This document shows positions 34,271-61,285 of a stretch of 64,000 bases of DNA, piece by piece. How positions within the stretch are numbered: position 1 is the first letter of the stretch; every line of letters starts with the position of its first letter. The DNA is from Echinometra lucunter (taxonomy: Eukaryota; Echinodermata; Echinoidea; Camarodonta; Echinometridae). The notes under the pieces were generated by a model. It was not told the origin of the DNA and searched no databases. It saw nothing but the letters and a program-made list of their open reading frames with translations. The position numbers and the translations under genes were made by a program. Location of the stretch: NCBI GenBank assembly GCA_029962745.1, contig CM057171.1, positions 4,203,740-4,267,739 of the forward strand, given 5' to 3'.

Positions 34271-34303
<33 letters not shown>

Positions 34304-36239: not shown

Positions 36240-36270
<31 letters not shown>

Positions 36271-36461: not shown

Positions 36462-36528
<67 letters not shown>

Positions 36529-39482
36529 TTCATTCATTTATTTATTTATTAAGTCTTTATTACCCGGGGTGGCTTCATCAGTAGCCTTTTGACAAGGCCT
36601 CGCGGCTCAGATTATTTTCAGTGGCTGAGACGAGACAAGCCAGCAACGAAGAGAGATAGACATACCTCGAGTGGCCGAGCGAGCTTTCGCGATTAGTCTC
36701 ATTTTAGTCGCTCGGCGTCTGATATAAACATCACATGAGACACGGGGTCACGGGGCCTTGTCTGAAGGCTACTTCATCAGTGGTTAAAACACTCTTTTTC
36801 ATAAAGGCCTTGCACATTGATCCCGCTTAATCACATTTAAGACTGAAAATAATTGATTTGATTTGATTAGACTTGATGTTATACTTTGAAACCTACAGCT
36901 CCACTGGCCAACTATTTGATCCAACGTTACAACTACCGACTAGTTCTGATTCTTACGACCTGTATATCTAGTATTGCCCTGGTTGGTACAGCGTTTTTCT
37001 TCACTAAATGGACTGTTGTCTGCTGCATGTCTCTATCAGGTAAGGCGACCGGCCTTGGAAGACGGGGTGGGTGCATGGGGGGGGGGGGGGGGGATATGCA
37101 TGTATATGCGTTATTCTCCGCTCACGATATATCGGAGGGAGCGGTGGGGGACTATATCACGGGAGGTGGGGGACCCAACATTCACATCTCCGAAACAATA
37201 ATTTTCCGTATAAGGGGGCTCATTATCCTGATCCTTATTCAGAATGTTAAATTCATTATTCCCAAAATGCTGTATTCCGCAAGGCAGGAATTCCGAAGGT
37301 TCATAATTGCGAACACTTTTAGCATTATACTCCAAACGATATTTATTCCAAGATTTCGTTACTACAAATTTTACCTTGGTATCTGAAGGTTCATGATATT
37401 AGAATGAAAAATCATATATCATGTATACTGAAAAATGCTATATACCCCATGTTTACGGTCGCTGTGTGAATTGAACTTATGTTACTCTTGCAGGGATCTG
37501 CCTGTCACCTCTACTCCAACTGATGGTCATAGCTTTACGGCAGCACTTTGGAGATCAGTTCGCTTCTGCATTCTCTGCTTCCTACACTGGATCTATCTTT
37601 GGCACTCTCTTGATGCCTCTCATCGCGATGTGGTCTTACCAGGCTTACGGACTCCGTGGCGCCTTGCTTTGTCTGAGTGCACTAGGATTAAACCTGATAC
37701 CTCTCGGTTTGTTGGTCAGTCTACGGAGCTTCTCTGGGAATGTCATGGACTCTCGCGACAAGCCGTCTCCCGATAGAAAAGGGGGCAGGAATCAGTGCCT
37801 AAAAGTAAAGGGACGCTCTTTCACCAAGTGATCTTCAAGAATCAGAGACATCATCTGAGTCAACGCCAAAATGTTCTTTGCTGCTGCCTCCCGAAAATAC
37901 CCCCGCACAGCCTGACAGCAGCCTGTAAAGTTCGCTAGGTACTGCTACGGAAACGAAGCACACAGATTTAAGCGAACATGGAGACACTGATATTCCTGAT
38001 TACGACAGAAATAAGAAAATGACACTTAAAGAATTGTCTAACATTGCCAATAAGATCCTTGAATTTATCCGGGTGATTTCCATGTACGATACTCTCAGGA
38101 ATGAGCCTGCCTTCTCCCTAATTGTACTCCCATGTCGCTTCTTCTTGGATATAGTCTACCTAGGGTGGATCGTCTTCATGGTGTCTTACGCCCTCTCCGT
38201 CGGGACCAACAGATTCCACGCAGTGTACCTTCCAATATCAGCCTCATTAGGAGGCTTCTGTGGACGTCTGGTTCAAGGTTTCCTCCTTCATTATCGACAA
38301 AAGTGGAGTTCCATTTCTTTTGTGACGTCCATCTTGATATCTAGTGCAGCACTATGCGGACACACATTCAGTTCCTACCTCTGGAATCTTATTCTCTGTT
38401 CGCTTTAGCTGGCTTTGGTCTTTCGGTTGCAGCCTCTGTTTACTATTCTATGATGGCGGATTTGGTGGCTGAGGAGAATTTTAAGGGAGCACTGGCCGGC
38501 CTCATCTTTCGTCAATGGAGTCGGTATCTTATTATCTGGGTTCTCTGTGGGTAAGCCTATTCCATTCCTTTAATACCTCTTTTTTTTCCGTCAGACGTTG
38601 TTAGGATGGTCTCTTGATGTGGCAGGGTTTTAAAGCTAGCGGATATTTCCGAAAAAAAAAACATACCTCGATAGTCTAGAGGCGGCGGAAGGGGGGGGCA
38701 GGGCGCAGAGTTTCCCCCTCCCAATCATTCAAGGTGGGATCGATTCGCCCCGTGCTTCCCTGGCAAGGAAAGAAAGAAGAAAATCCTACCCCTTGCAGTT
38801 TTGAAATACTGAGAATGAAAAGCCTGAAATGTACTGGTACAAGGGGAGGGGTGGAGGTGCAGGGTAAAGTTGGGTCGTCATTAGGTTGACGAAATGTGCC
38901 CTAAAGAGTGCTCCCCTCCAAAAGAAAAAGGAAAGGAATCCCTCCGGCAGGCCAGCCTTATTCAAACCAGAAAGGCAGACCCTAGAACGGCAAAAGACCG
39001 AGTGCCGGAGAAAGACATAACTAATTAAAAATCGTCCAGTTGGCTAAGGATCGCCCAGGATGGATACCTTGCGGAGTCGGTTCATTTGGCGGTGATGAGA
39101 ATTCAGCATCAGACTCACCAGGACCCCGTTTAATACCACTAATTGTTATCAATAAAAAGTTGCAAAAACTGTATAAGCTACTGAAATCCTTGCATCTGAT
39201 TGGCTGAAAGCAAATTGGTCGTAAGATTGGCAGTTTTTACTGATAACAAGTTTATGGAATGGGGTCCCCTGATAACGAGTTTATTGAAATGGGGGCAAAG
39301 TTGTCCATTTCATATTTTTTTTTCTTTCCCTTGTGTTGTAGGACTCGTGTTTGACTGGACGCTGTCGTTTGTTGTCACCATACCGTTTACTTGCTGGTAT
39401 TCTAGCCGTCATCTCCGTCGTCATGACGGTATTCCTCTTAGCTCGTGGTGATCAAAAGCAATGTCCAAGTCTAGAAGAATGA
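34639..39482 (+). pseudogene. SLC16/monocarboxylate transporter-like gene, copy A, frame-disrupted
   Basis: The four exons are at 34639-34825, 36899-37039, 37494-38550 and 39342-39482, homologous throughout to copy B and with all splice sites kept. Exons 1 and 2 are open. Exon 3 carries multiple single-base differences that break the frame: an extra C near 37770, an extra G at 37781-37785, a lost A near 37814, paired changes near 37925-37940, a lost T near 38404, and an extra G near 38496. Exon 4 has an extra base near 39380. Most fall in short homopolymers, so read error or an unpolished haplotype is as likely as true pseudogenisation. If real, no full transporter is made from this copy. Confidence 0.75.
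36465..36550. repeat. TTTA tetranucleotide microsatellite (copy A)
   Basis: (TTTA)n in intron 1; the expanded counterpart in copy B lies at 55617-55760. Confidence 0.95.
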
Positions 39483-39526
39483 ACTAACATGAATTCATTT
39501 TGCCCAAAGCTAGCTTTATGTTGACA

Positions 39527-40026
39527 NNNNNNNNNNNNNNNNNNNNNNNNNNNNNNNNNNNNNNNNNNNNNNNNNNNNNNNNNNNNNNNNNNNNNNNNNN
39601 NNNNNNNNNNNNNNNNNNNNNNNNNNNNNNNNNNNNNNNNNNNNNNNNNNNNNNNNNNNNNNNNNNNNNNNNNNNNNNNNNNNNNNNNNNNNNNNNNNNN
39701 NNNNNNNNNNNNNNNNNNNNNNNNNNNNNNNNNNNNNNNNNNNNNNNNNNNNNNNNNNNNNNNNNNNNNNNNNNNNNNNNNNNNNNNNNNNNNNNNNNNN
39801 NNNNNNNNNNNNNNNNNNNNNNNNNNNNNNNNNNNNNNNNNNNNNNNNNNNNNNNNNNNNNNNNNNNNNNNNNNNNNNNNNNNNNNNNNNNNNNNNNNNN
39901 NNNNNNNNNNNNNNNNNNNNNNNNNNNNNNNNNNNNNNNNNNNNNNNNNNNNNNNNNNNNNNNNNNNNNNNNNNNNNNNNNNNNNNNNNNNNNNNNNNNN
40001 NNNNNNNNNNNNNNNNNNNNNNNNNN
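39527..40026. other. Assembly gap of exactly 500 N
   Basis: It runs from 39527 to 40026. A round 500 suggests an arbitrary scaffold join. Sequence right of it soon repeats sequence left of it, so the two contigs overlap in content. Confidence 1.
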
Positions 40027-40740
40027 AGTGCACTGCAATTCCAGGGAACGTATTGTTTTCAATGGCGTACCCCAAAATGCATTGTCCTTAATCTCCCCTG
40101 CATGCTATGCCACTTTGGCTGTTCTTTGATCCATTTTAGATTTGCAGAAGAATGATTTTCATTTCAAGGGCAACGAAGCATGCAATCTTGAATCATGCTT
40201 TGTTTGTAATTTCCAGTGCAATATGACGGTGAATTGCAAGTCGCTTGACTTAGAAAAAAAAAATGGCTGCATGTTTTAAACTTTTAATTTGGCGATTTGG
40301 AACAGTTGAATGAATGTGTTCACTCATGCATGAAACTAATTTTATGTTTACCTACCAGGGTGAAATAACACTTAAGTTTACTAATTGAAAAATTGATCAA
40401 AAATCAAATTTGAGGCATTTAGTTACTCATGTGTCAAGTCCAAATGCCATTTAGATTTTGGACTTAACAGAAGCCTGGAAAACAGAACTAGCCGAAAGAG
40501 AGATAAACAACTTTTCAAAGCTCATTTTCCAGTATTTCTAATATTCTGAAGGGCTTGTTGCGTCGTCCTTAGTCAAATCAGTCATGATAGGTTTAAAGCT
40601 GTTGATCGAACCACCGTTAGTATGGTTCATGACCGAACTACTGCAATTAATTTTAACGTTTAATCACCAATGATAAGGGTATACTTTACGGGTTAAGGTG
40701 GGGTACGTGTTTCAAAAGTAAATGCAAAAAAAGGGGCGGA

Positions 40741-40742
40741 GG

Positions 40743-40781
<39 letters not shown>

Positions 40782-40801
40782 AAAAATGGGGGGGGGGGGG
40801 G
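40741..40801. repeat. GA microsatellite followed by A and G runs
   Basis: (GA)n is followed by A9 and a G run; copy A at the same place (about 32812-32838) is shorter and impure. Confidence 0.9.
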
Positions 40802-42380
40802 GAATGAGCAAAGTCAAAATACAGACGCGACTTGAATATAATACGTGTACTTCTAAACCCTGAAGCGTAAACAGCATATAATAGTGTGAGCGAAGCAAAG
40901 TTAAATCATATAGGCTGGTGACATAAAGCTTTAAACACGATCATATTAGTGATTCAGTGGGTTTTATTATTATATTGTATTAAACATGGAGTTTTCAGTA
41001 CGCAACCCTGAGGGATAACAGTATGACGCCAGAGCTGTACAGTACTAGCATGACTATGTCTCGAACAATGTTTACACGTTTGAAAAAAAAATATTTCAAT
41101 GCTATTGCCACGAAATGATCATCTGGGGGATAGCTGATGATCTCGTCAATAAAAGCATACAAATATCTTCAAAGATATTTCACACTTGACTAATCCGCAG
41201 TCTCTTATACGAACATGGTAAAAGGTAGAAAAATGGAGGCTTCCACCTGTAATTTTGGCACTTAATATAGACCAGGGGCGAAGCCCCCTCTAATGATTTT
41301 TCAAGTGAGCACAAAAAGAGAGAAAAAAAGAAGAAGATGAAGAGCGTCCTGTATGATACCTGCCCCTTTTCTTCATAAATATTGCAATCATAGGCGACGA
41401 CTCCGGTGGGGGGGGGGGGGGGGGGTAGGGACATTTCCCCTCCCCCCTCCAATTTTTAAACCTTAATATCTTTATTTTTCTATTTTGAGTGAGGGTTCAA
41501 AATAAAGGCCTACCATTTAAACATTTCATAGGCCTCGAGTGTATTTTTTTATTGCCCCCCCCCCCATCAAAATACCCTGGCACCGCCTCTGCTGTAGGCT
41601 TATACCTTGATGGTATATCGCAGCAATCGCATTTTTGGACATGTTGGAGTTCATGTCAACGTGTATGCCATTTGCATAGCTAGGTGTCATGACATGTGCA
41701 TCACCGTGACTGTAATCTTTTCCTCGAGTGCAGATCTTAGGATTTACTGAGGATTTATTATTCTGTTTGGAAGCCGCTAGGTGAGAAATAATTTGTTGGT
41801 TTGTTCGTGAAGGGTCTCAATTCTCAAGTATGAGGTCCTCGGTTCGATTCTCATTTTGCGCTGTAATCCGGGGGAAGGCAGCAGTCAGAAAATAATCATG
41901 GCAAACTCTTCTGACCACGGGTATTCCAAATCACCCCAAAAGAAGTTGTATCCACTGATCAAAGTCATCCTCTTTTAGATTTTTTTTCTTCTAATTTTTA
42001 AAATAATTACCCAATGAACACGTGTATACCTCTCGAACAATCGTTAAACTATACACAACTTCGCTTTTTTTGTAAATGTTTTTGCCTGTTCAGCCTGTTG
42101 ACACCTGAATGCACAAAGCGTTCAAAACCAATTCAACTCCCCCGTTTTCAAGGGGGGGGGGGGGGGTGGTAAAATAATTCGCTGAGCTACCTCCCCCTCT
42201 ACGATTTGTATCCAAGGTTTGTCCCTTCTTTCCGAACCTCAAACCATCGATCGCGTCATTGTAATTCGCCGGATATATACTGGTCAGCTGTCTGTTTCGT
42301 TGGTACGACTGCGGTATAGCCGCAGCCAACGTGATGTCACACGGTTACCATTTTGTACCAAAATAAGACCTTGTGACAGA

Positions 42381-43686
42381 CAGGGGCGTCGCTAGACTTT
42401 TTTTAATGGGGGGGGGGGGGTGTAGAGGCCAGATTGCGGACAAATTATGCCTCCGATTGCCGACGACCAACGTCGACAAATTCAACTGTATAAAGCCCAC
42501 GAGGCATGTTCAATTGTGTGCCTCTATTATATTTTCCTTCTAAATTATATTTGTTCACCTCACTTGTTGAATGTGTTAGCTTTCCGAAAACATTCTCTAT
42601 CTTAATATAATACGAGCGAGCGCAGCGAGCGAGGAAAAATATACACTCTCTTTCGTAGAAGTGACAGTTCTTCATCAAACTACATGATGGGCTTAAAGAT
42701 ATCTAAATCATATATTTGGTCACCTCTCTCACATGATTCATTCGCTTTCAAAGACCATCCTAAATCGTAATATTATACGAGCGAGCACAGTGAGCAAGGA
42801 AAAAATCTATATACTCCTTATCATATAATCATTTTCATGGTAGAAGTGAAAGTTCTTCATCCAAATACATGATGGGCCTTTAAGATATCTATTTTGATAT
42901 TTTGATCACCTCTCTTACCTAATTTATTTGCTTTCAAAGACCATCCTGTATCTAAATATCATACGAGCGAGCGCAGCGAGCGAGGAAAAATATGTATACT
43001 CTTTTTATGGTTGGTGATAACTCTTCATCAAAATACGATGGGCCTCGCTTGCCGAATTCGTTTGCTTTCCCAAATCCATCTTGTATCTGAATACTGTACA
43101 AGCGAACGTAGCGAGCGAGGAAAAATACTCCTTTTCATGGTAGAAGTGAGAGTTCCTCATCAAAATACACGATGGGCCTTTAAGATACCTATTGTGATAT
43201 ATTTGGTCACCTCTCCTACCTAATCTATTTGCTTTCAAAGACCATCCTGTATCCAAATATTATACGAGCGAGCGCAGCGAGCGAGGAAAAATATATTTAC
43301 TCTTTTTTATGGTATAGAGGTGATAATTCTTCAACAAAATACATGACGGGCCCCAAAATATCTGAATTATATATTTGTTTATTTCACTTGGCAAATGTGT
43401 TTGCTTTCCGAAAACATCCTGTATCTTAATATAATACGAGCGAGCGCAGCGAGCGAGGAAAAATAGGCTCTCTTTCGTGTTACCAGTGTTATTTCGTCGT
43501 CAAAATGCACAAGCAAATAAGCCGAATATGACTCTATTTGGGCACCTTACTCATCTTTCTTTTTTCTTTTTCCCTCCTTCCTCTTCCCTCTCCTTTCTCT
43601 CTCTCTTTTTTGCCGACAGCGATCGCGAATTTGCCGACAAGAATTTTTAATGGGGGGGGGGTGTCACACCCCCCCCCACACGCCCC

Positions 43687-43736
<50 letters not shown>

Positions 43737-43752
43737 TTTAGCGACGCCCCTG
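42381..43752. mobile_element. 1.37-kb hAT-like non-autonomous element with tandem internal units
   Basis: Termini CAGGGGCGTCGCTAGA and (reverse complemented) CAGGGGCGTCGCTAAA, flanked by the exact 8-bp duplication GTGACAGA at 42373-42380 and 43753-43760. Copy A has no insertion at the matching place near 34499. The interior holds six units of about 140-185 bp, each with an ATACGAGCGAGCGCAGCGAG-type block followed by CGAGGAAAAATA (starts near 42610, 42776, 42960, 43098, 43262 and 43434), then GTGAGAGTTCTTCATCAAAA and CACGATGGGCC. No transposase. A truncated relative lies at 35896-36240. Insertion lies about 145 bp upstream of the transporter start codon. Confidence 0.9.
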
Positions 43753-43896
43753 GTGACAGATATGACCAGCCTGGATATATTGTTCGTTTTATTTCAACAG
43801 AAGAGAATAAATTCGATTCAGTAATCAATTTCTTTAATACATCATTTCAATATTTTGATCTCCCTCATTACTCAGATCATCACGAAACAAGACAAA

Positions 43897-46550
43897 ATGA
43901 GCAAACCTGGCACATTCCCACGTCTCATGGTTTTTCTAGTCAATTTTGGAGTCCGTTTCTTTCGGTTTGGCATCACCAAATCTTACGGATTGCTCATACC
44001 GTATCTCGCCTATCAACTTGACACAAGTAATGCTATCACAGGGTTTATTGTTACTCTTCACAATGCATCTGGGTGTCTCATTTGTGAGTAAACCGTTTTT
44101 CTTTTCTCTGGTTCACACGATGTGTCATTTCGTGACTTAAGGAGAATGAAACCCTGGGAATGTCCATTTTAATGAAAACAAAGGATAGAGAGTGGCAATT
44201 TTAAAAAAGTTCCATCAACATCGGTTACAAAATTAGAAAGATATATGATGGGAAAATGTATTTTACAGATTTTTGAGCTCAAAAAAGAAAATCTCCTATT
44301 CTCTCCGTTATCTCAAAAGATGCTGCTTGTCTCCTTATTAGCTCAAGATAATATATCATGGGAAAATGTATTTGCCACAATGTTGAGCTCACAAAAAGAC
44401 AAGCAGCATCTTTAGACATAATGGAGAAAATAGGAAATTTGTTGACCAAACATATTGGGAGTTGTCCTTCTAAACCTGCCATTTTGGAGCAACATTGCCA
44501 ATTTTAGGATCGCCCTAGAAATTAAACTGATACTTTTCAAACTTTCATGACACTCTCATTTTGTAACCGATTTTGAAGGAACTTTTAAAAAAAAATTGCT
44601 TCTTTCTGTCCTTTCTTTTCATTAAGATGGCCATTTCCACAGGCTTTCATTCTCCTCAAACTCACATACACTCTAAAAAAACAGGGATCATTCGTGGTTA
44701 TTTTTACGACATTTTGCCGTGGTCGAAAATTATTAACCACGTTCGCGGTTATTTTTCCTCGTAGTTTCTTCTCTTCTTCTTGAAACGACATCAATGCGAT
44801 GTTAGCCGCGCGTGGTTAAAGGATCCCGTGGTCATTTTCGATTGCGACTCGTAATTTCATTGGCTAATTGACAGATCTATACGTCATCAATGCATATTTC
44901 GCACCTCGCGTAATTTGGAAAATGGACGTTGAAGAACTATTGAGAGAGTGGAGTTTGAAGAGTATGCTGCAACGTTCAGAGGTAAGTAAAGTGTAAAGTA
45001 ATCATCTAAACTACACAAATAAATATCATAGATTATTTGTAGGTACTGTTTGTAATGACATGTGAATCGGTTGCAAAGATTGAAGTGGATTAGCACAAGA
45101 GTTTCTCGGTCGCGGGATTGTTGTGCATACGCTAGGCACTAGTACAGTATGCACGCTGCATAATACAGAATTGCCGGGGGTCGTGTGAACGGACGCTAGA
45201 TTGAAGTTTGTTTTATGAAGTCTTTTCTTTGACTTTGGATTCAACAACAACTATTTATAAAATAACACCAAACATCATCAGTGTTTGTTCTCTATTATAT
45301 ATACTATACATTATATTGCTTGTAAGTTGAATAACTTCAACTGACATTCCAGATACACATGTTCTTGTTGGACTCGGGTTGGGACACACAAAGCGACTGT
45401 GCGCTTCAATCCGGTCTCACGCCAAACGAAACAAGCACTCGCCGCCGCGCGCGGCTGGCGCTTAGCCGGCTGCGGAGATGCCTCCGCTGTACATGTGGGG
45501 TTATCACAATTCTGTGATTTAGCACAGGAGCCAAATTCCAGTAAAGCACATTCCTTGTGCAAAGTTTGGCAAAGACAAAGTTAGTCCTTGCATTACTGTG
45601 GATCGCGCCACGCATGATCCAGGCCAGGCAAGGTACCGTACTCGTCCACGAATCAGTAATCTAGACCTAGATCTAGATCTAGTGGTGCTGGCAGTATAGA
45701 TCTACTGCCAGTACCACTACACTAGGACTCTAGGTCTAGATCTACTACAGCTAGTAGGCCTACACCATTATCTCAAGAATACCTGTACAGCACTGACATT
45801 GACTGGGCTGCGAGGCTGTAGAGTGTAGTGTAGCTTAGGCCCTAGACTAACTTCTGGGTACCAGTGGCAGATCCAGGATTTACCGGGGGGGGGGGGGGGG
45901 ATGAGGGATGCATACCCCCCCCCCCCCCAGAATTTTGGGTTGGGGATGGTGTCTTCAATCACCCCCCCCCCCCCCCCCCCCCCCCCTGGATTTTGAGATC
46001 TATCAAATTGTAATTTTTTTAAAGATATAGATCTATACAAATTTAACATTATTGTGATTATTATCATCATTATTATTATCATTCTTTTTGTTATCAGTAT
46101 AATTGTCATAATGTAATTACAATACTGATGTCAGCATGTTTTAACATGAATCTGTTTGGATCTAATGGCCAATGTGAAAGTTTAGTGGTATGGATCAATT
46201 CATTTTCGATTCATTGTTAAACTGTTAAGAAAAAGTTGAAATTAGATAATAGATATTTTTTGTAGTTTGGAAGCTTTTCAAAAACTTGTTAAGACTCATA
46301 TTATTAGTCTTTCGTTTTAATATTATTAACAAAGGTTTAATATTTTTAACAAAGGTTAAAACCTTTGTCATTATTTTACTACTGATTTACTCCATCTAAC
46401 GCAATGTGCTATGTGAGTTTTCAATATTTTCTCTTCCCTCTGGTTTCTTAAAAAATATCTCTTTTTATTATAATCCTGGGGAGAGCACTCAGAACAGCAA
46501 GCACTCTGAGTAGTTTGTAACTAGATATAGCGCTTTATAAGAAATTACTT

Positions 46551-46610
<60 letters not shown>

Positions 46611-49600
46611 TTTATTATTATTATTATTATTATTTCTTGGTCCTGATTTCATCCCCAAAAATTAATTACATGTTAGGGCTTGCATCATCCCCTGATAGTG
46701 ATAATAATAGGGGGGGGGGGGGACATCCCCTCATAATTTTAGGATGTCATGATAAATCCCCAGGTTTTATGGGGGAGGGAATAGCAAACTCAAAATTAAT
46801 ACGACGTATTTTAGCAAAAAGTTAATTGCAACGAACAACAATAACAAATTAACAATAATTATACCGTTTACACTTTAGCCAATCACAGACAGTTTCTTGC
46901 AATTCTATATTCCAGTTATTTAGAGTTTCTGTAATATATTTTGGCTTGCAATGGAGAATCATGTTCGTCCACAGATTGAAGCTGCATCATGCCGCTATAA
47001 AGCACAAAATAGAGATAATTGGTATCTCCATCATGTCGGTCACTTATCACATCCACTTTGGTCTAGGATTCAACATTTTTTTAGATGTTTCCTCCTTAAT
47101 TGGTATTTCCTCCATTCTTCATGATACACTTCACACAGTGACACCACTGGCATGTCGGATTGTCTTCCTTTACCCATTTTTTTTTGTTTGTTTGTTTTTT
47201 TTGGGGGGGGGGGGAGCTGGGCGCCCTAAAGCTTAACGAAAATAGTACTTGTTTGATAAATGGCTATATTGTATTATCAACATCATGGATTGCAGCTTAA
47301 GTCCTTGAATATTATGGCTATTACACCTCCATGAATTCAGCTACTTTGTTGGTATTTTCACTTTCCTAAAGAAGAAACAAAATTGATATCAAATTACCTA
47401 ACAATTCTAAGATAAAATTGAATATTTATTTTTTAAAGGGTTAGTTTATGGGCTTGCTCGATTCACTCGCTCGCAAAATTTATTCTTAAAGATGATGCAC
47501 CCTATCCAAAATTATAAAGCCCCTCTTCTGAAATTCCGGTCCATTAGGCCACTTCAAAGTCTCACTTATATACTTATACATGTATACGATTGTGTGGGGG
47601 AGTGTGGTACATGTATACACCACATGTGTGTACATATACATCATGTACATAGGCCTAGATGAGATCATCCCCCCCCCCCCCTCAGGTTTGAGGACCTGTC
47701 TACACCCTGACTGACTAGTACTATAGTCATGTGGTACAAAGGGTGGCATACAAATATATACAGGTTGGCAGCAGTTGTGTGATTTGCTGAGCTGATTCAC
47801 ATTTTTTTTTCTTCTTTTCTTGTAGATAATGGAATAGATGGTGAAGCATTTCACCTCCTTGATGAGGCATCCATCACTCAACTATTTCCCAAACTCGGTG
47901 ATAAATTGAAGTTCTCCAAGTGCTACAAGGAGTTCAACAGATCCATGCAGGATTACAGGACTGTCACACTCAAAGAGGTACTATTTGTAATAAGTGAAAA
48001 TTCAGCATAAATGGTGCTCTTATGCTTTCGTTGTCATGAGAGTATACATGGGGGAAGCACTGAGAGCCCGATCACCTGAAAATTAGCACTCATAACACTA
48101 ACAACGTAAAGCAAAATTGTATAGATGACAGAGATGCCAACTGTTACTGTTTCAGCGTATTTGTTCTAATTTTCTTGCACTTCTTGCAGTTAACAAAGAA
48201 AATGTTAGCAGAAACCAAACAAAAATACACATTCTCCACTCCATTTTCATCTGCACAGAGCCTTTAACCCTGTCAGTCAAGAAAATATTTGAACTTTGCT
48301 AAGGAGGCTCTTTCTTCACCTGTTATGTTTGTTTTCTCAAGATCTTGGTGTGGGAGTAGGAAGCTTAGTGGTATTTCCGGATTTCTGCAGATATCATTGA
48401 AAAGTTGAAGTATTTTTGTTGCCCAGATGGCCCTCATCCTTTCACTTACAATCCAGAGCATGCAACACTCAGGATAATTGCATCTCAGTTTTATTCTCAG
48501 TGTTTAATCTCAAGTAATTATTGCATTGACATTCTATTTCTCTCAGACTCAATTCCCGAAGGGCAGATTGATGAAATGCGTTGATGGCTTCAGTACAACA
48601 TAGAGCCCAAAAGCAAAGTTGAGGAGTATACAGAGATAACATCCAGGATCCGGTTACGGGAGATATGCACTGAAGAGGCAACTACGCCTTCCATCCTAGG
48701 AAACTGGCCTCAGATGTTAGATGCACCAGGCATGGTATGTAAAAGTAGAATATTTTTGTTTTTAATGTCTCTGCCACATAATGGTGCTACAGGAATAATG
48801 GTTTTGGAATGTGTTTGTGTGTTCCAAGGTCAAATGTGAAAGGCCACAGGTCAATGTTTTTATCCTGCTTATGAGTAAAGAAAAATTTCATGAAAAGCAG
48901 GAGGCAAAATTTGTATTCAAAGGATATTACTAGATTTGATGTTAACATAACAAATATCATAACTATGATATTTGTGTCGAAAGATGCAAAAGACTTAGTG
49001 GTATAACAAATAAGTCAGAAAATTACATGGGGTGATTTGGGGGTGAAAATCGTCTAAGAGAGGCATGCCCTCCCCCCCCCCCCTCCCCCCCCCCCAAGTC
49101 CTTTTATCCATACTTCAAATCATAGAAACAATATTAAGCCTTTCTTTGTGACTGTGGTGATTGACGTGATTCTTTAATCTCAGTCCCTCTGCATAATTTA
49201 CTTCTATATATCTAACGTAAGGGAGCGAAACATTCTTTTTATTTCTTTTCTCTAGATTGAAGAAGACTTCAATACATTATTTGGCCAGCACAAGTCTGAC
49301 AAGTTAACGACAAAATGGACCCAGGAATTGGCAGGTCACGTCATGCATTACTGCGCAATGCAAAGAAGCAGTTCTGCCCTAGGAGATGTCTTCCAAAGCT
49401 TAAAAACTGGTAAATTTTGAAAGCTAGGCCAGGCCTCCTAAGTTTCAGATGGGTTTGTATTTCAGTTTGTGTGACATATATTGTTTTTATATATATCACA
49501 ATCAACAAGACACTTTCCAAATGCAACTAGAAGAAAAGTGTAATTATTTTGACCCACTTCTCCCCCTCCCTCCAATCTAAAAATGCCTCTCAACTATTGC

Positions 49601-52600
49601 ATGATTGCAACATACCCTCCTGTTATTCTTTCCTTTAAACTGCCATTGTTATGACAGCTTGGTTTCATAACTGATTGTCTGTTCACATTGTTTTCACTTT
49701 TCCCCATGTCACAGTGCATGAATGTCTGTCCATCAGGAGTTATTACAGATCAGCTGCCCACAAACAAATGAAAGACAATCCTGCAGATTTGTGACAGTCT
49801 CCATGTCAGTTTTTATATAAATGCTACAGAAATATGTGCTATAAAGAGACGATTTTCGGTTCCCCTCAGGACCCCCCCCCCCCCCATCAGTTTTTTGGGC
49901 GGCACCTTCTCATTTTTTGCCCGATTTTCATAAAATTGGTGTCAAAATGCTCAGGAGATCAAACTGCATCAAATAAGAATGAGCCTAAATTGATTTCAAA
50001 CATCACCATTTTTACCCCCCCCCCCCCCCACCCCCCCCACCCCCCCCCCCCCCCCCCCCCCACGTATAGCCTACCCCTAATCTCGGAACAAAATTAAAAT
50101 AAGGTAAAATAAGGCTGTGATCTTTCAAACACATCCCCTCATTTTTCATGCTCTCTGACAGCAATATTTAGAGGAAAGCATTTGTGAATTGGCTTTAACT
50201 ATTTCTTCTTTAACGTAGTTGTGTCCATTTACAGTTTCACACTCGCTTGCAAATCTAATTTACAAGAAAGTTTAATAGTATTTCTGTTTTTGTCACCCTG
50301 TCTATGTACATAACATCTTGATTCATGTTCAAAATGATTCATCAATCATATACCTAAGATATAAGATATTTTCTTGAATAATTTGTAATATTGTGATCCA
50401 TTTGAGTTTTGAAGCACTGAAGTGACCAAAGTTTAGTCCATGCAAATCTACATGGTGTAAAAAAAAAAAAAAAAAGAACTAGGAAGTTTATGTGATATTT
50501 AAAAAATTTTGGTGCTCACCAAATGCACAAAAGATATCCTGGCCGCAATAATTGGTAATACATGTATATGAAAATTGTTAAGATGTTGACTGAAAGTAGT
50601 TAAGGTTTACAACAAAATTATTTTATGCCTCTGCCCACTGCACAACAAAGTTGGGTGGTGAAGGCATTGTTTTCAGGTCATCTATTTGCTTGTTTTATTT
50701 ACCAGAATTATTCAATTTGTAAGTTTTCAAGAATGTAGCCCTAAAATGGCCGAGGGTGGAATCCACCGGCCCCTCCCCCCCCCCCCAATGTTTCGCGCTA
50801 TATTTCTGCAACGCGCCAAGATGTCACCGCGACACTGCATGACATTTTTCTGTAGCATCTTGCTCATTTTTAGGGACTAACTATGTGTACGCGGTTCCTA
50901 GTTACACAATATTTTGTACTCTGATCAAAAATTGCTCAAAAATGTGATTTCATGTACAAATCCAGGAAAAATTCATGAATGTATAATTATTTTTGCTATT
51001 AATTATCAAAATCAATTAGTTTTAGTCAGGTTATGATCTATTTTAGGTGTGTTCAGATATGATACGACTCTGTGCTGCCATGTACGCTAATGAACCTAAT
51101 GAACATACATCAACGCGCCAAGCCACAACAAAAGAGAGAATTTTGCCAAAACTTGCGCCAACTTTTTTATAAATTTGATCAGTATTCATTCTTTTGCAGC
51201 CAGACAGCAAACCAAAATATGTCCTGCCTCAGCTACATTTTTTTGGTCACCCTAAAACCCCTAGACCTGTACACAAAAAAATGTGGCACGAATCGGCATC
51301 ATATCTCAACGCGCCTCTTGTTTTTCATTTTTGTACAGTGTGACCCATGATATCTTGTCCATTAAATGGGGACATGAATTAAGCAAGTTATTTCTGATTT
51401 GATGGTTTTTAACTGAACGCTCGTATTATAATCTGTGAACAGAATGTGTACATTTACAATGTAATTTGTCATTGTCTCTTCTAAAACTGCATGATAAAGA
51501 ATGGACAAGAAAACTTGTGACATGGGAAACATTAAAATTGTAGAAAAAATGCAACTGTAACCCTGTCTTAACTGGGGAGGAGGGTCAAATTGACCCCCCC
51601 CCCCCTTGACATTTTTCGCGATAATTTCACAACGCGCAAAGATTTTGCCACGCGATTTCGTGACTTTTTTTTTTTAAAGTCTCCCACAAATTTTAAGACC
51701 AAATTTTGCGATGTCCGGGTACAGTGTTGTGAAGTTACTTAATATTTTGTACATGCACGTCAACCGAGAACAGCTCAAAATTGTGGTTTTGTATGCAAAT
51801 TCTGTGTTTAGATAAATTAATGTAATTTGGATTATTTCCACTTTTAATCATTGTTATTAATTTATTCTAGTGTTAAAAAACTTGAAACGGTGTCTGCAAC
51901 AAATTTTGGTTATAAATAATAAAAAAACACAAGAAATTGATTTGTTGCAGACACCTTTTCAAGCTTTTAGCAAGGGATTTTTTTTGGTGTATGTTGAGGA
52001 ATACCAATACAAAAAATTAGTAACCCTTTTTATGGAGTTATATAGGTGAAAATATGATTTCATGCATATATTTGAATAATTAATTAAAAATAGAAATCTG
52101 AATTTTTCTTATATATGACCATCCGGCTCTATGTCCAGGCAAAATTGAAGGAGGGTGGGGGTGGGGGGTCAAACTGACCCCCCCCCCCCCCCCCCCCCGT
52201 AAAAATTTGGTCATAAATAGCCCAGTTGAAATAGGATTAAGGCAAAATTAGTTTTGACGTTTATATATTCTCATGTTGTAAAGGGATTAAATGATAGTGA
52301 AATATAACATGTTTATGTATTATAATGCTTGTATTTCATTGCTGTATATATTATGTTTGACAGATGGGAATGATCATCATAATTTATTCCATTATGCATG
52401 AAGTTGAATTGAATTTCCATGCTGTATGAAATAGCATTACTGCAAAACATATGTTGTTTAAAATCAAAAGAAACCTTTAAAACATAGCAGTTCTATGTGA
52501 AAACATTCATTTTGTGCTTAAGAAAATGTTTATGTATTCTAACAATACTTTTATGCGTGTGTCAACAGATGGTGGATGCCAGAGGCATGTATTTTTCAGG

Positions 52601-54592
52601 TTGTCTGCCCGTCTATCCCTTTTTCATTGTCGCGATAACTTCAGAACCATTGAACAGCTCAACTGCATACTTGTCTCATGTATGGATATGGGAAGGACGA
52701 TGATGTCAAAGGTCAAAGGCTACATACATGAAAATGGTTGGTTCTCTCAATGACTTAGAACCATGGGATGGATAAGCTTCAAATTTGGCCGACACAGTGT
52801 CATTTGAACATAGAACCTTTGGTGTTTTTTCCCAGTTTTGATCCAGCAAAGCTGGAGGCATAGATTTCAACCACGTATACTCGAGGATTCATCCGGTCAC
52901 CATGAAAAAAAAAAAAATAGGGAATTCTATTTATGGGTCTCTTTTAGGTCAGAATATGAAAATAGAATATCTCACATTCTACCATTAAGGTCAAACCATG
53001 CATAAATATTTCTATATAACTGGAATATAATGTATAAATTACGCAAATTATTGTACCTGTATTGATAATTACATTTCTTGATGTTCGAATTAACTGTTTG
53101 AAATTTGAATAAAATTCAACTCATTTGATCAGAAAATTCATTGCACATTGTAACATTCAATTTTGTTGTCAAAAGTGACCTGATGCGTGAAAGAGTATAG
53201 AAGAATGATGAGGTTCGGACAATATCATTAATTCAACCACGGCATGAAATGACCACGTGATGACCACGTTCAAGTGTTGTATTGACCACAGAAGCGTGGT
53301 CATTTTATGACCACGTTTGGGTCATTTTATAACCACAATATGATGTTATTTGAAATGACCACGGAGAACGTGGTCGAAACGACCACGGTTGTAGTAGGTG
53401 CATAGTTGGCCCCTGTGACGTGGTTAAAAATAACCACGTCGTGGTCAATTTTTTTTTAGAGTGTAGCAGTTTTATACAGGGTTTTTCATGAAATTTTCCC
53501 TCCTCGAAATGACAACAGGTGCTTGTAACCCCCCCCCCCCCCAGTTTGAAAATGATTTTTTAAAATGTGCATGAAAACTGCAAAATCTAACAGGAAAAAA
53601 TCATAAAAATATATTGCCATTTTAGAGAGTTGCTAACAAATTATTCACTCTTATTGGTAAACAAGGCAACAAAATGCACTACAAATAGACTTAAATTTGT
53701 CTGTTAATTTTTCTCTTTCTGCACATTTTTTATGATGTATAATGTGTTATTCCTCTAATAATAAAAGAGAAAAATGGACAGATTCTTCTGAATAAAAATT
53801 ATTTATTTGTTTATTTATTTATTCATGGCTTATTTCAATTTGTGACTGGCAGCCAATAACTTCGGTAGTTTGAGGTATTCACCTATAGTCCTGGGGAAGG
53901 TTTCATGAAGAGTCTTGTTGGTGATCTTCACTGACTAATTTGCTCTCAGCCAATCAGATACTATAGGATTTTCAGAAGCTTATAACAGTTGTCAGTGAAA
54001 AATCATTGACAAAACTCTTCCCCTGAGAAGGACAGGGCAACCACAACTCCCGAAAAAAATCTATTAATTCCAAATCCAACAGTCCTTCTCAGGACTACAC
54101 CACATGGTGAATATCGCAAACCACTGAAGTTATCTCATTACCATGCAAACCGCTTTCTTCAAGGAATTCTGGCAGCCAATATGGCTGAATTGCTCACAAT
54201 AATTTGAAAATACACATATATACAATCAAAATAAGTACGACAACAGCTTACTAAAATGACTAATGAATAATCACATGAATTACTGTTGGAGGAAGAAAAT
54301 CCTTAGCATGCTTAGAAAGATATTATCATATTTATCATTTAGACATGGCTTTTGGATATTAAGTAGGCCTATTGTGATATAGCGATATTACAGGTATATA
54401 GCGATGAAAATTGTAGCAATGTATAGAAAGGAATTCAATTAACTAAAATCTCTCTATAAATGCAAATATGGGTATCCGATTCGTCAATTATCATATTGTA
54501 CATACTAAGAAATTAGGATGCCATTCTGCACCCTAATTTCTTAGTGTGTATAATATGCATCAGGCAGACCTGTGCGCTGTACAAGTAGCCAC

Positions 54593-54634
<42 letters not shown>

Positions 54635-54726
54635 CATTATTATTATTATCATTATTATTATTATCATCATTATTATTATTATCATTATTATTATTATTAT
54701 AATAATTATTATTATTATTATTATTA

Positions 54727-54766
<40 letters not shown>

Positions 54767-54774
54767 CATCATCA

Positions 54775-54817
<43 letters not shown>

Positions 54818-55615
54818 CAAATTCATATTCAAAAAGTAGGCATATGAACATATTAATTTCAATCAAAATTCACATATTAGTTATTGCTCGGAATCATATT
54901 GCACAAAAATTAGCATATTATGCTGCGCATAAGTATTATTGCTCTGCATGGATTGAACAGATTAACGAGTTATTGTTACGAGTTTCAGTAGCCTTATCAA
55001 AATACCAGCAAAATACCAGGCTCATATAGGAAAGGTAAGAAATACGACAACCCAACCATTATGTAATCGATGTTTCGTTGTAGCAGGTGTGTATAGAATT
55101 TTTTGGAGGAGACTGTAGCCTATGTTCTCTTATTCTCTTCCTTTCCGCTCTTTATTAAAAAAAAAAACGTTCTGTTTAGAACTTATAATACCCTTAGAAA
55201 CATGCCATGTCATTGATGTATTTTTCTTCTCCTTCCTCCTCTTTTTCTTCTTCTCCTTCTTCTTCTTCTTCTTCTTCTTCTTCTTCTTCTTCTTCTTCTT
55301 CTTCTTCTTTTTCTTCTTCTATTATTATCATTATCATCATCATGGGCGTAGATAGCGGGGGGATGGGGGATGCATCCTTCTCCCCCCCCCCCCCCCCTCA
55401 CACGCATTTTGAGGTGGACTCATATTGGTGTGTACAAAAATAAGTACGAATGGGTTAATCATCTCCCCAGGTATGAAGACCTGTGTACGCTAATGATTAT
55501 CACTATCATCATTATCATTTTCATCATTATCATTATCGTCACAATCACTGAAGAGCTTAATCCCAAAAGGCGCTAATTCCATTTTCACCGAAACAAGGTA
55601 TTGGAAGGACATGAT

Positions 55616-55646
<31 letters not shown>

Positions 55647-55699
55647 TTCATTCATTTTATTTATTTATTCATTTATTTTATTTATTTATTCTATTCTAT

Positions 55700-55758
<59 letters not shown>

Positions 55759-58700
55759 TTAAGTCTTTATTACCCAGGGTGGCTTCACCAGTAGCTTTTT
55801 GACAAGCCCTCGAGGCTCAGGTTATTTTCAGTGGCTGAGACGACACTAGCCAGCAACGAAGAGAGATGGACATACCTCGAGTGGCCGAGCGAGCTTTCGC
55901 GATTAGTCTCTTTTTAGTCGCTCGGCGTCTGATATAAACATCACATCAGACACGGGGTCACGGGGCCTTGTCTGAAGGCTGCTTCATTAGTGGTTAAAAC
56001 ACTGTTTTTCATGAAGGCCTTGCACTTTGATCCCGCTTTACTATTAATCACATTTAAAGGAGAATGCAACCCAGACATCAGTGTGCTTCCAGTGAATGAA
56101 AGAAGAACAAGAAGAATAAACAGTGAAAGTTTGAACAAAATCGGACAATCTGTTCAAGAGTTATGAGCTTTTAAAGTTTAAGTAAATCCTTATAATGAGG
56201 ATCCTTGAATTGGCAACTTTGCCTGCATCTGTGATGTCATTGTGGTCAACTCTCCGTTCACTTTGTACACAGAATTTAGCATTTTCTTTATTTTCAAAAA
56301 ATAATAAAAATAATTTTGATTTGTTGTTTGAGTATGACATGGCTATATCAATTCTGCAAGCATTTTGGGAAGAATTATGTTGATTCCTGACTTGAAATTT
56401 CATATGAATTAATTTTTTGAAAAATTATGTACAAAATGAATTGAGAGTTGTCCACGATGACAACACAGATGCTGGCAAAGTTGCCAATTCAAGGATCCAC
56501 ATTATAAGGATTACTTAAACTTTAAAAATTCATAACTCTTGAACAGATTGTCCGATTTTGTTCAAACTTTCACTGTTTCCTCTTCTTGGTCATCTTTATT
56601 CACTAAGAGTACACTGATGCCTGGGTAGAATTCTCCTTTAAGATTGAAAATAATTGATTTGATTTGATTAGACTTGATGTTATACTTTGAAACCTACAGC
56701 TCCACTGGCCAACTATTTGATCCAACGTTACAACTACCGACTAGTTCTGATTCTTACGACCTGTATATCTAGTATTGCCCTGGTTGGTACAGCGTTTTTC
56801 TTCACTAAATGGGCCGTTGTCTGCTGCATGTCTGTATCAGGTAAGGCGACCGGCCTTGGAAGACGGGGTGGGTGGGGGGGGGGGGGGATATACATGTATA
56901 TGCGTTATTCTCCGCTCACGATATATCGGAGGGAGCGGTGGGGGACTATATCACGGGAGGTGGGGGACTCAACATTCACATCTCCGAAACAATAATTTTC
57001 CGTATAAGGGGGCTCATTATCCTGATCGTTATTCAGAATGTTAAATTCGTTATTCCCAAAATGCTGTATTCCGCAAGGCAGGAATTCCGAAGGTTCATAA
57101 TTGCGAACACTTTTAGCATTATACTCCAAAAGATATTTATTCCAAGATTTCGTTACTACAAATTTTGCCTTGGTATCTGAAGGTTCATGATAATAGAATG
57201 AAAAATCATATATCATGTATATTGAAAAATGCTATATACCCCATGTTTACGGCCGCTGAGTGAACTGAACTTATGTTACTCTTGCAGGGATCTGCTTGTC
57301 ACCTCTACTCCAACTGATGGTCATAGCTTTACGGCAGCACTTTGGAGATCAGTTCGCTTCTGCATTCTCTGCTTCCTACACTGGATCTATCTTTGGCACT
57401 CTCTTGATGCCTCTCATCGCGATGTGGTCTTACCAGGCTTACGGACTCCGTGGCGCCTTGCTTTGTCTGAGTGCATTAGGATTAAACCTGATACCTCTCG
57501 GTTTGTTGGTCAGTCTACGGAGCTTCTCTGGGAATGTCATGGACTCTCGCGACAAGCCGTCTCCGATAGAAAAGGGGCAGGAATCAGTGCCTAAAAGTAA
57601 AGGGACAGCTCGTTCACCAAGTAATCTTCAAGAATCAGAGACATCATCTGAGTCAACGCCAACATGTTCTTTGCTGCTGCCTCCCGAAAATACCCCCGCA
57701 CAGCCTGACAGCAGCGGTAAAGTTCGCTTAGGTACTGCAACGGAAACGAAGCACACAGATTTAAGCGAACATGGAGACACTGATATTCCTGATTACGACA
57801 GAAATAAGAAAATGACACTTAAAGAATTGTCTAACATTGCCAATAAGATTCTTGAATTTATCCGGGTGATTTCCATGTACGATACTATCAGGAATGAGCC
57901 TGCCTTCTCCCTAATTGTACTCCCATGTCGCTTCTTCTTGGATATAGTCTACTTAGGGTGGATCGTCTTCATGGTGTCTTACGCCCTCTCCGTCGGGACC
58001 AACAGATTCCACGCAGTGTACCTTCCAATATCAGCCTCATTAGGAGGCTTCTGTGGACGTCTGGTCCAAGGTTTCCTCCTTCATTATCGACAAAAGTGGA
58101 GTTCCATTTCTTTTGTGACGTCCATCGTGATATCTAGTGCAGCACTATGCGGACACACATTCAGTTCCTACCTCTGGAATCTTATCCTCTGTTCGCTTTT
58201 AGCTGGCTTTGGTCTTTTCGGTGCAGCCTCTGTTTACTATTCTATGATGGCGGATTTGGTGGCTGAGGAGAATTTTAAGGGAGCACTGGCCGCCTCATCT
58301 TTCGTCAATGGAGTCGGTATCTTATTATCTGGGTTCTCTGTGGGTAAGCCTATTTCCATTCCTCTAATACCTCTTTTTTCCGTCAGACGTTGTTAGGATG
58401 GTCTCTTTGATGTGGCAGGGTTTAAAGCTAGCGGATATTTCCGAAAAAAAAAACATACCTCGATTAGTCTAGAGGCGGCGGAAGGGGGGGGCAGGGCGCA
58501 GTTTCCCCCTCCCAATCATTCAAGGGTGGATCGATTCGCCCCGTGCTTCCCTGGAAAGGAAAGAAAGAAGAAAATCCTACCCCTTGCTGTTTTGAAATAC
58601 TGAGAATGAAAAAGCCTGAAATGTACTGGTACAAGGGAGGGGTGGAGGTGCAGGGTAAAGTTGGGTCGTCATTAGGTTTGAAATGTGCCCTAAAGAGTGC

Positions 58701-59269
58701 TCCCCTCCCAAAAGAAAAAGGAAAGGAATCCCTCCGGCAGGCCAGCCTTATTCAAACCAGAAAGGCAGACCCTAGAACGGCAAAAGACCGAGTGCCGGAG
58801 AAAAGACATAACTAATTAAAATCGTCCAGTTGGCCAAGGATCGCCCAGGATGGATACCTTGCGGAGTCGGTTCATTTGGCGGTGATGAGAATTAGCATCA
58901 GTCTCACCAGGACCCCGTTTAATAACACTAATTGTTATCAATAAAAAGTTGCAAAAACTGTTATAAGCTACTGAAATCCTTGCATCTGATTGGCTGAAAG
59001 CAAATTGGTCATAGATGTGGCAGTTTTTACTGATAACAAGTTTTATGGAATGGGGTCCCCTGATAACGAGTTTTATGAAATGGGGCAAAGTTGTCCATTT
59101 CATTATTTTTTCTTTCCCTTGTCTTGTAGGACTCGTGTTTGACTGGACGCTGTCGTTTGTTGTCACCTACCGTTTACTTGCTGGTATTCTAGCCGTCATC
59201 TCCGTCGTCATGACGGTATTCCTCTTAGCTCGTGGTGATCAAAAGCAATGTCCAAGTCTAGAAGAATGA
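43897..59269 (+). CDS. SLC16/monocarboxylate transporter-like protein, copy B, four exons
   Basis: Exons 43897-44083, 56700-56840, 57288-58343 and 59130-59269 join in phases 1, 1 and 1 to 507 aa, typical for MCTs. Residues 1-185 contain about six hydrophobic helices (TM1 contains FGVRFFRFGITKSYGLLIPY). A polar Ser/Pro/Glu-rich cytoplasmic loop follows at about 187-315, then a second helical half. The halves and the long central loop fit the 12-helix MFS fold of the proton-linked monocarboxylate carriers in the plasma membrane. The hallmark DGGWGW-type motif before TM1 is absent, so this is a divergent SLC16 member and the substrate cannot be named. Intron 1 is expanded to 12.6 kb by the mobile elements described. 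The ATG in AAAATGAGC is the first in the open exon; a non-coding 5' exon is possible. Confidence 0.88.
44922..49794 (+). CDS. SAM-domain protein, SAMD3-like, five exons, with an apparent 1-bp frameshift
   Basis: The exons are 44922-44981 (MDVEELLREWSLKSMLQRSE), 47826-47977, 48594-48734, 49256-49409 and 49715-49794 (ends NPADL, stop). Exon 2 opens DNGIDGEAFHLLDEASITQL and completes a SAM domain. Exons 3-4 give TSRIRLREI, PQMLDAPGMIEEDFNTLFG and KLTTKW, matching the region after SAM in SAMD3-like proteins (PRLLDTPGL...DF..LF.....KW). The exon 1 donor is phase 0 but exon 2 needs phase 1: one extra T near 44976 would restore the expected F-x-D-N-G of the fold, so a base is missing in the genome or the assembly. 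Exon 3 also has a weak acceptor; extending it upstream meets TGA at 48583-48585. SAM domains usually mediate protein oligomerisation; function here is unknown. All exons lie inside the mobile element. About 195 aa if repaired. Confidence 0.65.
45660..45760. repeat. AGATCTA-rich foldback
   Basis: CTAGACCTAG...TAGTGGT and TGGCAGTA pair with TACTGCCAGTACCACTA...CTAGGTCTAG. It is a short hairpin in the first intron of the SAM gene. Confidence 0.7.
46556..46636. repeat. ATT microsatellite
   Basis: Nearly pure (ATT)n inside the large element. Confidence 0.95.
49795..53463. other. Gene-free right part of the 8.8-kb element
   Basis: It is AT-rich DNA with repeated C-rich modules near 49865-49890, 50010-50062, 50755-50830, 51585-51665 and 52150-52200. 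Several of these are followed or preceded by ACGCGCCAAGAT or ACGCGCAAAGAT and TTTCGCG blocks. I see no transposase motif or recognisable exon. The last 250 bp are the CGTGGT-rich subterminal region. Confidence 0.6.
54590..54820. repeat. ATT/ATC microsatellite, about 230 bp
   Basis: (TTA)n with scattered TCA; the source of poly-Ile, poly-Tyr and poly-Asn frames. It is absent from copy A. Confidence 0.97.
55230..55345. repeat. CTT microsatellite with ATT/ATC tail
   Basis: (CTT)n followed by ATTATTATCATTATCATCATC; low-complexity, with no gene. Confidence 0.95.
55617..55762. repeat. TTTA tetranucleotide microsatellite (copy B)
   Basis: (TTTA)n interrupted by CATT and CTATT; expanded relative to copy A at 36465-36550. 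Confidence 0.95.
56058..56637. mobile_element. 580-bp foldback MITE with TTAA target duplication
   Basis: It starts AGGAGAATGCAACCC and ends with the complement (GGGTAGAATTCTCCT), flanked by TTAA at 56054-56057 and 56638-56641. Copy A shows the empty site (CACATTTAAGAC, near 36832-36843). The arms are about 190 bp each and closely matched, including GTGAAAGTTTGAACAAAATC and CCTTGAATTGGCAACTTTGC. The TTAA duplication suggests mobilisation by a piggyBac- or Kolobok-type transposase. Confidence 0.92.
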
Positions 59270-61285
59270 ACTACATGAATTCATTTTGCCCAAAGCTAGC
59301 TTTATGTTGACACGAAGGATCGATACACAAGGCTACAGCACATTCTCTATATCTCTGAACATACTGAAGGTCAAAATAATTTCAGCTACCTCCTCATGAT
59401 ATAAGCACCAACTAATTTTGTCCATAAATGTCTATAGTAGTCATGTTGCAGTAGTAATGGCATATACAGGAATCGGCCAATAACTGGTTTAAATGAAATG
59501 ACCAACTTTGTGCTTGTTTAGTCTTCAAATAACAGACACCAAACATTGATTTTTATTTTCATTATTTATTCTCATAAATGAATAATCTCATAGTGCAATC
59601 AGCAATACCAATCTGAGGGAACAATCAGTTTTATATTGGGGACCTGTTATATGAAAATTATTTGCCAAAATAATTAACCCTAAAATACCCAGGCTATTTC
59701 TGGTCTAGTTATTCCCCCCCCCCCCCCGGGGGGGGGGCATTATGGCCCCCCTATAATCTCGGCCGTGGATCACCTGATCGGCACGAAAATTGGCATGGGG
59801 GTAGAGAATGATGTAATCTACAAGGCCATATAGTTAGATTTTATCAAATCGTATTGTTTTATTTTATATGAATTAATTTATGCTAATTTATGCGAGAAAT
59901 CACAGTTTTGGCTATATCTCACTGAATAAAGCTTTAGGAGCAATGATTTTTGGTAGAAATGTTTTTCATAACATTCACATCGACCATTTACTAAAAAAAT
60001 GAGTTATCTTTTTTTTTTGTTATGTATTCTACTGTTTTACAAATTCCTTATGTATTTCTTTGTTTTTTAAAAACGTCTTTGTGTGGGTGTGTGGGTGTGT
60101 GTGTGTATGTAAGAGTGTGTGTTTGATGTTTCTCACTATTTTAGAGAGAGTAATTATTCTTTCCTGCCAGTATTCACATAATTTTGAAAAGTTTCTGATT
60201 TTTCCCATAGGTTTGTACACAGTCATATACAGAAATAGTGAAATTGTAACGACTTGGTATCAAAACGTACGGGAAGGATCAGAGAAAAAAGTTATTGAAT
60301 CTCAGATCGATACATCTAGTCGTTGCGGAGTACAGTCGAAAATTCAACAGGGGGGGGGCATTATGGTCCCCCCGGATATATTATGTTTAAGGGATATTAC
60401 CAGTCCCAGAAGTTTGGGACGGGCAAACTTGAAAATTAATTTTAGAAATATTCATGCAGGTCTTTATTATTCATTCTTATTTGTTTCAAACTCAATTGAT
60501 ATTCGTAATTATTCTTATTCTTGTTGTTATTGTAATGTTATTACTATCATCAATTTTGTAGATAAATGTGTTATTTCAAAAAGATATAAGAAATGTACTT
60601 TTCAATCAATTTGCTGATATTGATTCATGTACGCAACTTTATGGGGCTAACCCCGATTAGCACATGCTATTTGTTAGTTCCCTTTACCAAGATGTATATA
60701 TCATTGTGATTTTTTTTTTCAAAATGTATGTATCATTGTCATTTGGGTTAATGAATAAATCCATTCATTCATTCATTCAAAAGAACATTACTTGTAATCA
60801 TGTCCTTTTGGTTTTCCCCCTGCATACTTTGATTGTGTTTTGTATGGCCGCTTGCCACAAATTTTCATGCGACAGGTATCCGTTTATTGTGTACTCTTTC
60901 CAATCGATGTGTTCTTTTTGAAACATTTTTTTAAATGCTACACTTTACAAAAGGAAACATAACCTTTTAAATTGATGATTTTTTTTATAGCTAGATCCTT
61001 GTTAAACTTGAACAAAAGTTTAGCAGATACTGCCACAACATTGCTTATACCAAATTTTACTTTAGTAAAGATGTCAAGTACCTTCTGATACCGTCTGTTT
61101 AAGGTCAAAGTCTCTGTAATAAAAATATTTCTAAAATGCCTTTGAGCTTGTTGTGACTTTTTTGTGCACTGGCACGACCCTGTTCACGCATGCATTCATT
61201 GTGATTGATAGCTTGTGATCCTTCAACAGATATTATGCATTTCTAAATGTATGATCATGTGAAGAGAGCAACTTGAATCCTCGAG

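Follow-up and report, generated by a model that had tools for sequence, protein, structure and literature searches.

A SAM-domain gene enclosing the transposase in a CACTA-type element of Echinometra lucunter, and a deleted copy that keeps its remains

The DNA analysed here, hereafter the window, is a stretch of 64,000 nucleotides of Echinometra lucunter (C21:4203740–4267739 of an assembly of 743 Mb in 2266 contigs) and holds, at 44669–53463, an 8.8-kb element with CACTC…GAGTG ends that can be read directly in the sequence. This element lacks internal parts and is non-autonomous; it is a copy of a CACTA transposon of 20 kb in which the gene for a SAM-domain protein encloses that of the transposase and which would probably work in the manner of En/Spm of maize. 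The SAM gene most likely belongs to the element as a second gene of its own, inherited in a subset of elements, rather than being cargo, since it is nested with the transposase in a full-length copy, the same order is repeated in a second family, and the two genes are linked in other animals.

Full-length copies of about 20 kb were found on contigs C418 (19,946 bp), C736 and C1787, the latter two being cut by contig ends. Identity to C418 amounts to 98.7% for C736 (over 18.1 kb) and to 98.8% for C1787 (over 17.4 kb). The SAM gene of C418 has nine exons, separated by GT–AG introns of matching phase, which join into an open frame for a protein of 483 amino acids with a SAM domain at the Pfam cut-off (SAM_2, 20.5 bits). 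The same joins applied to C736 reveal a frameshift in exon 3, and the fetched contig of C1787 is without the first SAM exons. The transposase of C418, an open frame of 841 amino acids with the signature residues of CACTA (CMC) enzymes, sits in intron 2 of the SAM gene and in the same frame as SAM exon 2. When the sequence is read past the exon-2 donor, there follow, without change of frame, ten codons, one stop and immediately the ATG of the transposase; this holds for 13/13 copies that retain the stretch. A transposase open reading frame inside an intron of a second gene, as in the En/Spm type, is thus present in C418 and likewise in C121, the second family considered below. The sequence-only reading that preceded this work had asked whether other copies hold SAM exons or a transposase; C418 holds both, open.

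Compared with the window copy, the three full-length copies are longer by about 8.3 kb at 48049–48063 and by about 3.4 kb near 49823. What is left of the SAM gene in the window is disrupted: exon 1 falls one base short of its counterpart in C418, exon 6 contains a stop, and exons 3–5 and 8–9 are absent. The stretch around the main junction could be followed in 13 copies, being contiguous in nine, split into two distant pieces in the three full-length ones and represented by its first part only in C12; C591 and C2a were left unplaced, the fetched part being too short or too divergent. The in-frame stop of exon 6 occurs in 9/9 copies with the main deletion and in 0/3 full-length copies. The window copy is therefore an internally deleted, non-autonomous member, and the nine deletion copies, which have both the main deletion and the exon 6 stop in common, form one subfamily. 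The SAM exons had been thought to be the only recognisable genes inside the element; the start of the transposase nevertheless persists in it. The gene remnants and deletion edges of the window copy are as follows.

44922–44981, + strand: SAM exon 1, out of frame in the window copy (aligned to exon 1 of C418)
47826–47977, + strand: SAM exon 2, end of the SAM domain (152 nt and splice sites as in C418)
48008–48010, + strand: stop codon ahead of the transposase ATG, TAA here and TGA in 12 other copies (a stop in 13/13 copies)
48011–48064, + strand: transposase remnant, first 18 codons (tblastn of the C418 transposase)
48049–48063, no strand: main internal deletion junction, about 8.3 kb relative to C418, with 15 bp common to both edges (alignment)
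48547–48734, + strand: SAM exon 6, with an in-frame stop at 48582–48584 (188 nt as in C418)
49256–49409, + strand: SAM exon 7 (154 nt as in C418)
49823–49825, no strand: second internal deletion junction, about 3.4 kb relative to C418, with SAM exons 8–9 gone (alignment)

C12 (L027/L028) has a deletion of its own and is host to other transposon-like frames. At the equivalent of window positions 45653–45703 lie open frames of 339 and 345 amino acids that resemble, by eye, proteins of the YqaJ and DDE_Tnp_4 types; a second transposon seems to be nested there.

The assignment of the transposase draws on both motifs and structure. The C(2)C and H(3–4)H pairs, which lie between the second D and the E of the DDE transposase and whose definition is taken from the available part of PMC12730594, are invariant in 12 aligned proteins. 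A RAG1 fold, as expected of CACTA/EnSpm transposases, is seen in the predicted model of a relative 54% identical to the C418 protein. The Pfam family Transposase_21 (tnp2) is not matched by the C418 protein itself; eight of 55 relatives match it at E ≤ 0.01, and P0012 exceeds the curated cut-off. At the C-terminus of the modelled transposase P0001, residues 688–823 are predicted to form a BAH-like domain, possibly a chromatin reader.

The association between the two genes extends beyond this family. In C121 the transposase shows 35% identity to the C418 enzyme, and the order of SAM and transposase exons is the same, with the last exon duplicated; exons 1, 3 and 4 rest on weak matches. The stop ahead of the transposase is missing in C121, so that SAM exon 2 and the transposase form one uninterrupted frame, and likewise in gene model P0048; there is one stop in C12:56117 and there are two in C14:2059250. 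P0048, P0096, P0089 and P0077 have a SAM domain ahead of the transposase; the first two were among the seeds of the profile that found it. The end of the SAM domain stands ahead of the transposase in one frame in P0077 (E 1.8e-4), more weakly in P0057 (E 0.019), and by eye only in P0067 and P0098. Among the matches listed, five of 120 transposase relatives are predicted proteins that also include the downstream exons of the SAM gene (two of them from Holothuria and one each from Apostichopus, Lineus and Trichonephila, that is, sea cucumbers, a nemertean and a spider); these gene models are automatic and speak for genomic linkage, not for a fused protein. In E. lucunter, divergent loci of the last SAM exon outside the family number at least 34 (36–50% identical; best 88 of 326 candidates scored) and transposase loci at least 49 (best 54 of 279). 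Four of these 34 lie at most 25 kb downstream of a transposase on the same strand, where uniform placement would give 0.028. At seven loci (C121:20866–21747 and six similar ones) the last SAM-gene exon occurs twice in tandem, about 0.6 kb apart, which suggests another family, one in which the C-terminal part is duplicated.

One may ask whether SAM domain, transposase and downstream SAM exons are simply a single protein made by read-through of the stop, the downstream exons being a C-terminal extension of the transposase. The solitary stop within one frame, the open frames of C121 and P0048 at its position and the union of all three parts in the latter gene model would be consistent with this. 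However, the transposase frame closes with a stop of its own, exon 2 joins exon 3 in phase, and other organisms have predicted proteins that combine SAM domain and C-terminal part without a transposase (such as P0122, P0125, P0130 and P0131), so that we consider such a fusion unlikely.

Several observations weigh against an En/Spm-like element with its own SAM gene. For 30 of the 34 divergent last-exon loci there is no transposase partner among the matches listed. Examination of 16 further transposase 5′ ends revealed SAM exon 2 directly upstream in three and not in the other 13, over about 700 bp; these 13 represent seven different sequences by eye, and C1976 has only about 100 bp upstream. 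The SAM gene is therefore not a close companion of every such transposase. The transposase frame is broken in two of the three full-length copies, the C418 transposase and P0001 reach no CACTA model in Pfam, and domain searches recognised no DNA-binding domain in the SAM protein. Two groups of near-identical transposase 5′ ends with no SAM exon in reach, C7/C9/C705/C1979/C13 (L046, L047, L053, L057, L059) and C639/C941 (L051, L054), are, judged by their sequences, other young CACTA-type families of this genome.

The 30 solitary loci, together with a window copy that by itself offers SAM exons and hardly any transposase, might be taken to support capture of a host gene that then spread as a passenger, in the manner of Pack-type elements. 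This had been the proposal of the sequence-only reading. Its observation that the element carries the SAM exons was correct; capture itself now appears very unlikely, being weakened by the linkage of the two genes: the full-length copies hold both, nested, a second family has the same exon order, and the fused gene models of Holothuria, Apostichopus, Lineus and Trichonephila unite them. A captured gene should be missing from autonomous copies and from other families, and the SAM gene is intact in C418 and present in C121. As to SAM exons at a conserved single-copy locus without the element's ends, named in that reading as counter-evidence, the exons occur in many places, but 30 of the 34 divergent last-exon loci have no transposase partner among the matches listed.

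The ends of the window copy conform to the CACTA/EnSpm pattern of CAC…GTG inverted termini and subterminal motif arrays, with C instead of A as the fifth base. The left terminus reads CACTCTAAAAAAAC from 44669 and the right one …TTTTTTTTTAGAGTG at 53463; the inverted repeat is free of mismatches over 13 bp and looser beyond (82% over 39 columns). The two 300-bp ends together contain 16 CGTGGT/ACCACG motifs, whereas 2000 random pairs of 300-bp pieces drawn from the remainder of the window average 0.085 and never exceed 2, and the arrays are confined to 164 bp (left) and 228 bp (right) from the element ends. Direct reading thus bore out the inverted ends, flanking TA, CGTGGT-rich termini and empty site (at 35407) reported earlier. 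The terminal features are listed below.

44667–44668, no strand: target duplication TA, left (sequence)
44669–44681, + strand: left terminal inverted repeat, CACTCTAAAAAAA, matching the right end at all 13 bp (sequence)
44693–44832, no strand: left subterminal array, 5 CGTGGT/ACCACG (motif listing and enrichment count)
53236–53445, no strand: right subterminal array, 11 CGTGGT/ACCACG (motif listing and enrichment count)
53451–53463, − strand: right terminal inverted repeat (sequence)
53464–53465, no strand: target duplication TA, right (sequence)

A genome search with the left 300 bp returned 13 rows, corresponding to 12 left ends (C18 in two parts); with the right 300 bp, 11 close and four weak matches were obtained. 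The close end matches amount to at least 15 copies, at least eight of them two-ended, in agreement with the earlier expectation of a mobile, multicopy element whose ends recur elsewhere. A 2-bp duplication flanks seven of the eight two-ended copies, in different surroundings: the dinucleotides are TA, TT, CA, TA, TA, TG and TG, and C18 has a mismatched pair. C2a and C2b, which have the same right flank, are probably duplicates of one insertion. Since the dinucleotide varies among copies, the duplication is not tied to TA; the TA duplication described before holds for the window copy and not as a fixed target. The length of 2 bp falls within the 2- to 3-bp range of CACTA/EnSpm elements and departs from the plant rule of 3 bp. 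Two stretches at C21:21377998–21379106 (L020/L022) resemble the right end (82% and 81%), lie in opposite orientation about 1 kb apart and are without the GAGTG end; they are perhaps a decayed related element.

In maize, according to the available part of PMC2613891, the transposase open reading frame of En/Spm lies in intron 1 of tnpA and one unit yields both proteins; TNPA attaches to the subterminal repeats, neither protein can be dispensed with, and the two also serve deleted copies in trans. The element described here shares with that system CACT ends, subterminal arrays, a transposase frame within an intron of a second gene and deletion derivatives. It differs in its 2-bp rather than 3-bp duplication, in the position of the transposase (intron 2 instead of intron 1), in the SAM domain of the partner and in the continuity of frame between transposase and SAM exon. 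End motifs also differ between families: C121 has GTTGTTYAAA, 11 of whose 14 matches in 23 kb are concentrated in the 400 bp that precede the tentative right end, with only one match in the left 260 bp. Plant CACTA families likewise differ in their end motifs (PMC2613891, in part). From this En/Spm-like anatomy and the family-specific motifs we infer that the SAM protein would be a TNPA-like partner of the transposase.

Expression of both genes could start from one promoter in the left terminus, which is plausible because 253 bp separate the left end from the ATG of exon 1 in the window, close to the 250 bp noted earlier, and 250 bp do so in C418; the distance is 258 bp from the tentative end of C121. 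Use of the exon-2 donor would yield the 483-residue SAM protein, whereas a message in which this donor is ignored would run across the one stop to the transposase ATG, the transposase being made by re-initiation or by read-through; relatives without the stop would produce a SAM–transposase fusion. The SAM protein would then bind or organise the CGTGGT arrays, as TNPA does its repeats, the SAM domain may aid assembly of the partners, and the two proteins would also serve, in trans, deleted copies like that of the window.

Alternatively, the SAM protein may belong to the element without binding its ends, serving as an accessory that acts on host chromatin or against silencing. Indeed, among solved structures the SAM domains of two chromatin proteins, L3MBTL3 and SAMD1, come closest, albeit weakly (E 0.006–0.13), and the C-terminal domain of the modelled transposase resembles BAH chromatin readers. 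Yet the arrays differ between families (CGTGGT and GTTGTTYAAA), as expected of a family-specific reader, a task for which the zinc fingers of the transposase could also serve; on balance we find an accessory of this kind rather unlikely. The earlier label 'SAMD3-like' found no support, the name SAMD3 being absent among the 18 and 20 proteins returned from about 8000 candidates sharing most words that were scored.

Among animal elements, SmTRC1 of Schistosoma and other TRC elements are similar in their CACTA-type transposase and 2-bp duplications, and messages with and without the transposase have been cloned for SmTRC1; its ends, however, are CCC rather than CACTC, and its second proteins are reported not to be detectably conserved, with no SAM domain mentioned in the available part of that report (PMC1636069). 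The 20.5-kb CACTA element Tgmt* of soybean compares well in size, arrays and possession of one complex gene for the transposase and a presumed end-binding function, but it is a plant element with a 3-bp duplication, and the accessible portion of PMC2613891 mentions no SAM domain. ESTA, the EnSpm-like elements of fungi with TA duplications, have a CMC-type transposase and match the TA of the window copy (PMC12730594, in part); the seven perfect pairs found here comprise TT, CA and TG as well as TA. RAG1, BbRAGL (ProtoRAG) and Transib differ from the present element, which has CACTC ends, a 2-bp duplication, a SAM partner and a transposase with N-terminal zinc fingers and a C-terminal BAH-like domain. 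No report of a SAM domain in a CACTA, EnSpm or other DNA transposon was found in the open-licence literature, subscription journals and Repbase reports being outside this scope, and a search there for SAMD3 with transposons returned only unrelated papers.

The window also contains an empty counterpart of the insertion, which reads actcacaTAgcag at 35400–35412. It belongs to copy A of the surrounding region (32554–39526), the filled site lying in copy B (40495–59312) beyond a gap:

35407–35408, no strand: uninterrupted TA of the empty counterpart (sequence and alignment)
39527–40026, no strand: run of 500 N separating the empty from the filled copy (sequence)

Copies A and B are 86–97% alike piecewise, and 94.2% over 1240 columns around the insertion site. 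Given this likeness and the 500-N gap between them, they may represent one locus in two un-collapsed haplotypes and not a tandem duplication, in which case the insertion would be polymorphic. Unless the element was precisely removed from A, the insertion postdates the split of A and B. Exons common to both copies (37929–38408 and 57269–58396) resemble, by eye, those of a monocarboxylate transporter.

It is tempting to go further and to see in these elements an ancient, animal-wide CACTA lineage in which a single unit yields two proteins sharing a SAM domain for oligomerisation, a RAG1-fold transposase whose BAH tail reads chromatin and a partner coating the family-specific arrays, and in which the stop and the choice of splice would set their ratio and the SAM domain would dock both; we put this forward tentatively, as a possibility somewhat short of even. 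If the En/Spm-like reading is true, a conserved SAM protein linked to a RAG1-fold transposase would supply the partner that lacked detectable conservation in SmTRC1 (PMC1636069, in part), and the two-protein transposition of maize Spm would gain an animal counterpart, testable in animals. It would also offer a comparison for how RAG1-like enzymes gain partner proteins, and would serve as a warning that some annotated animal SAM-domain genes are transposon genes.
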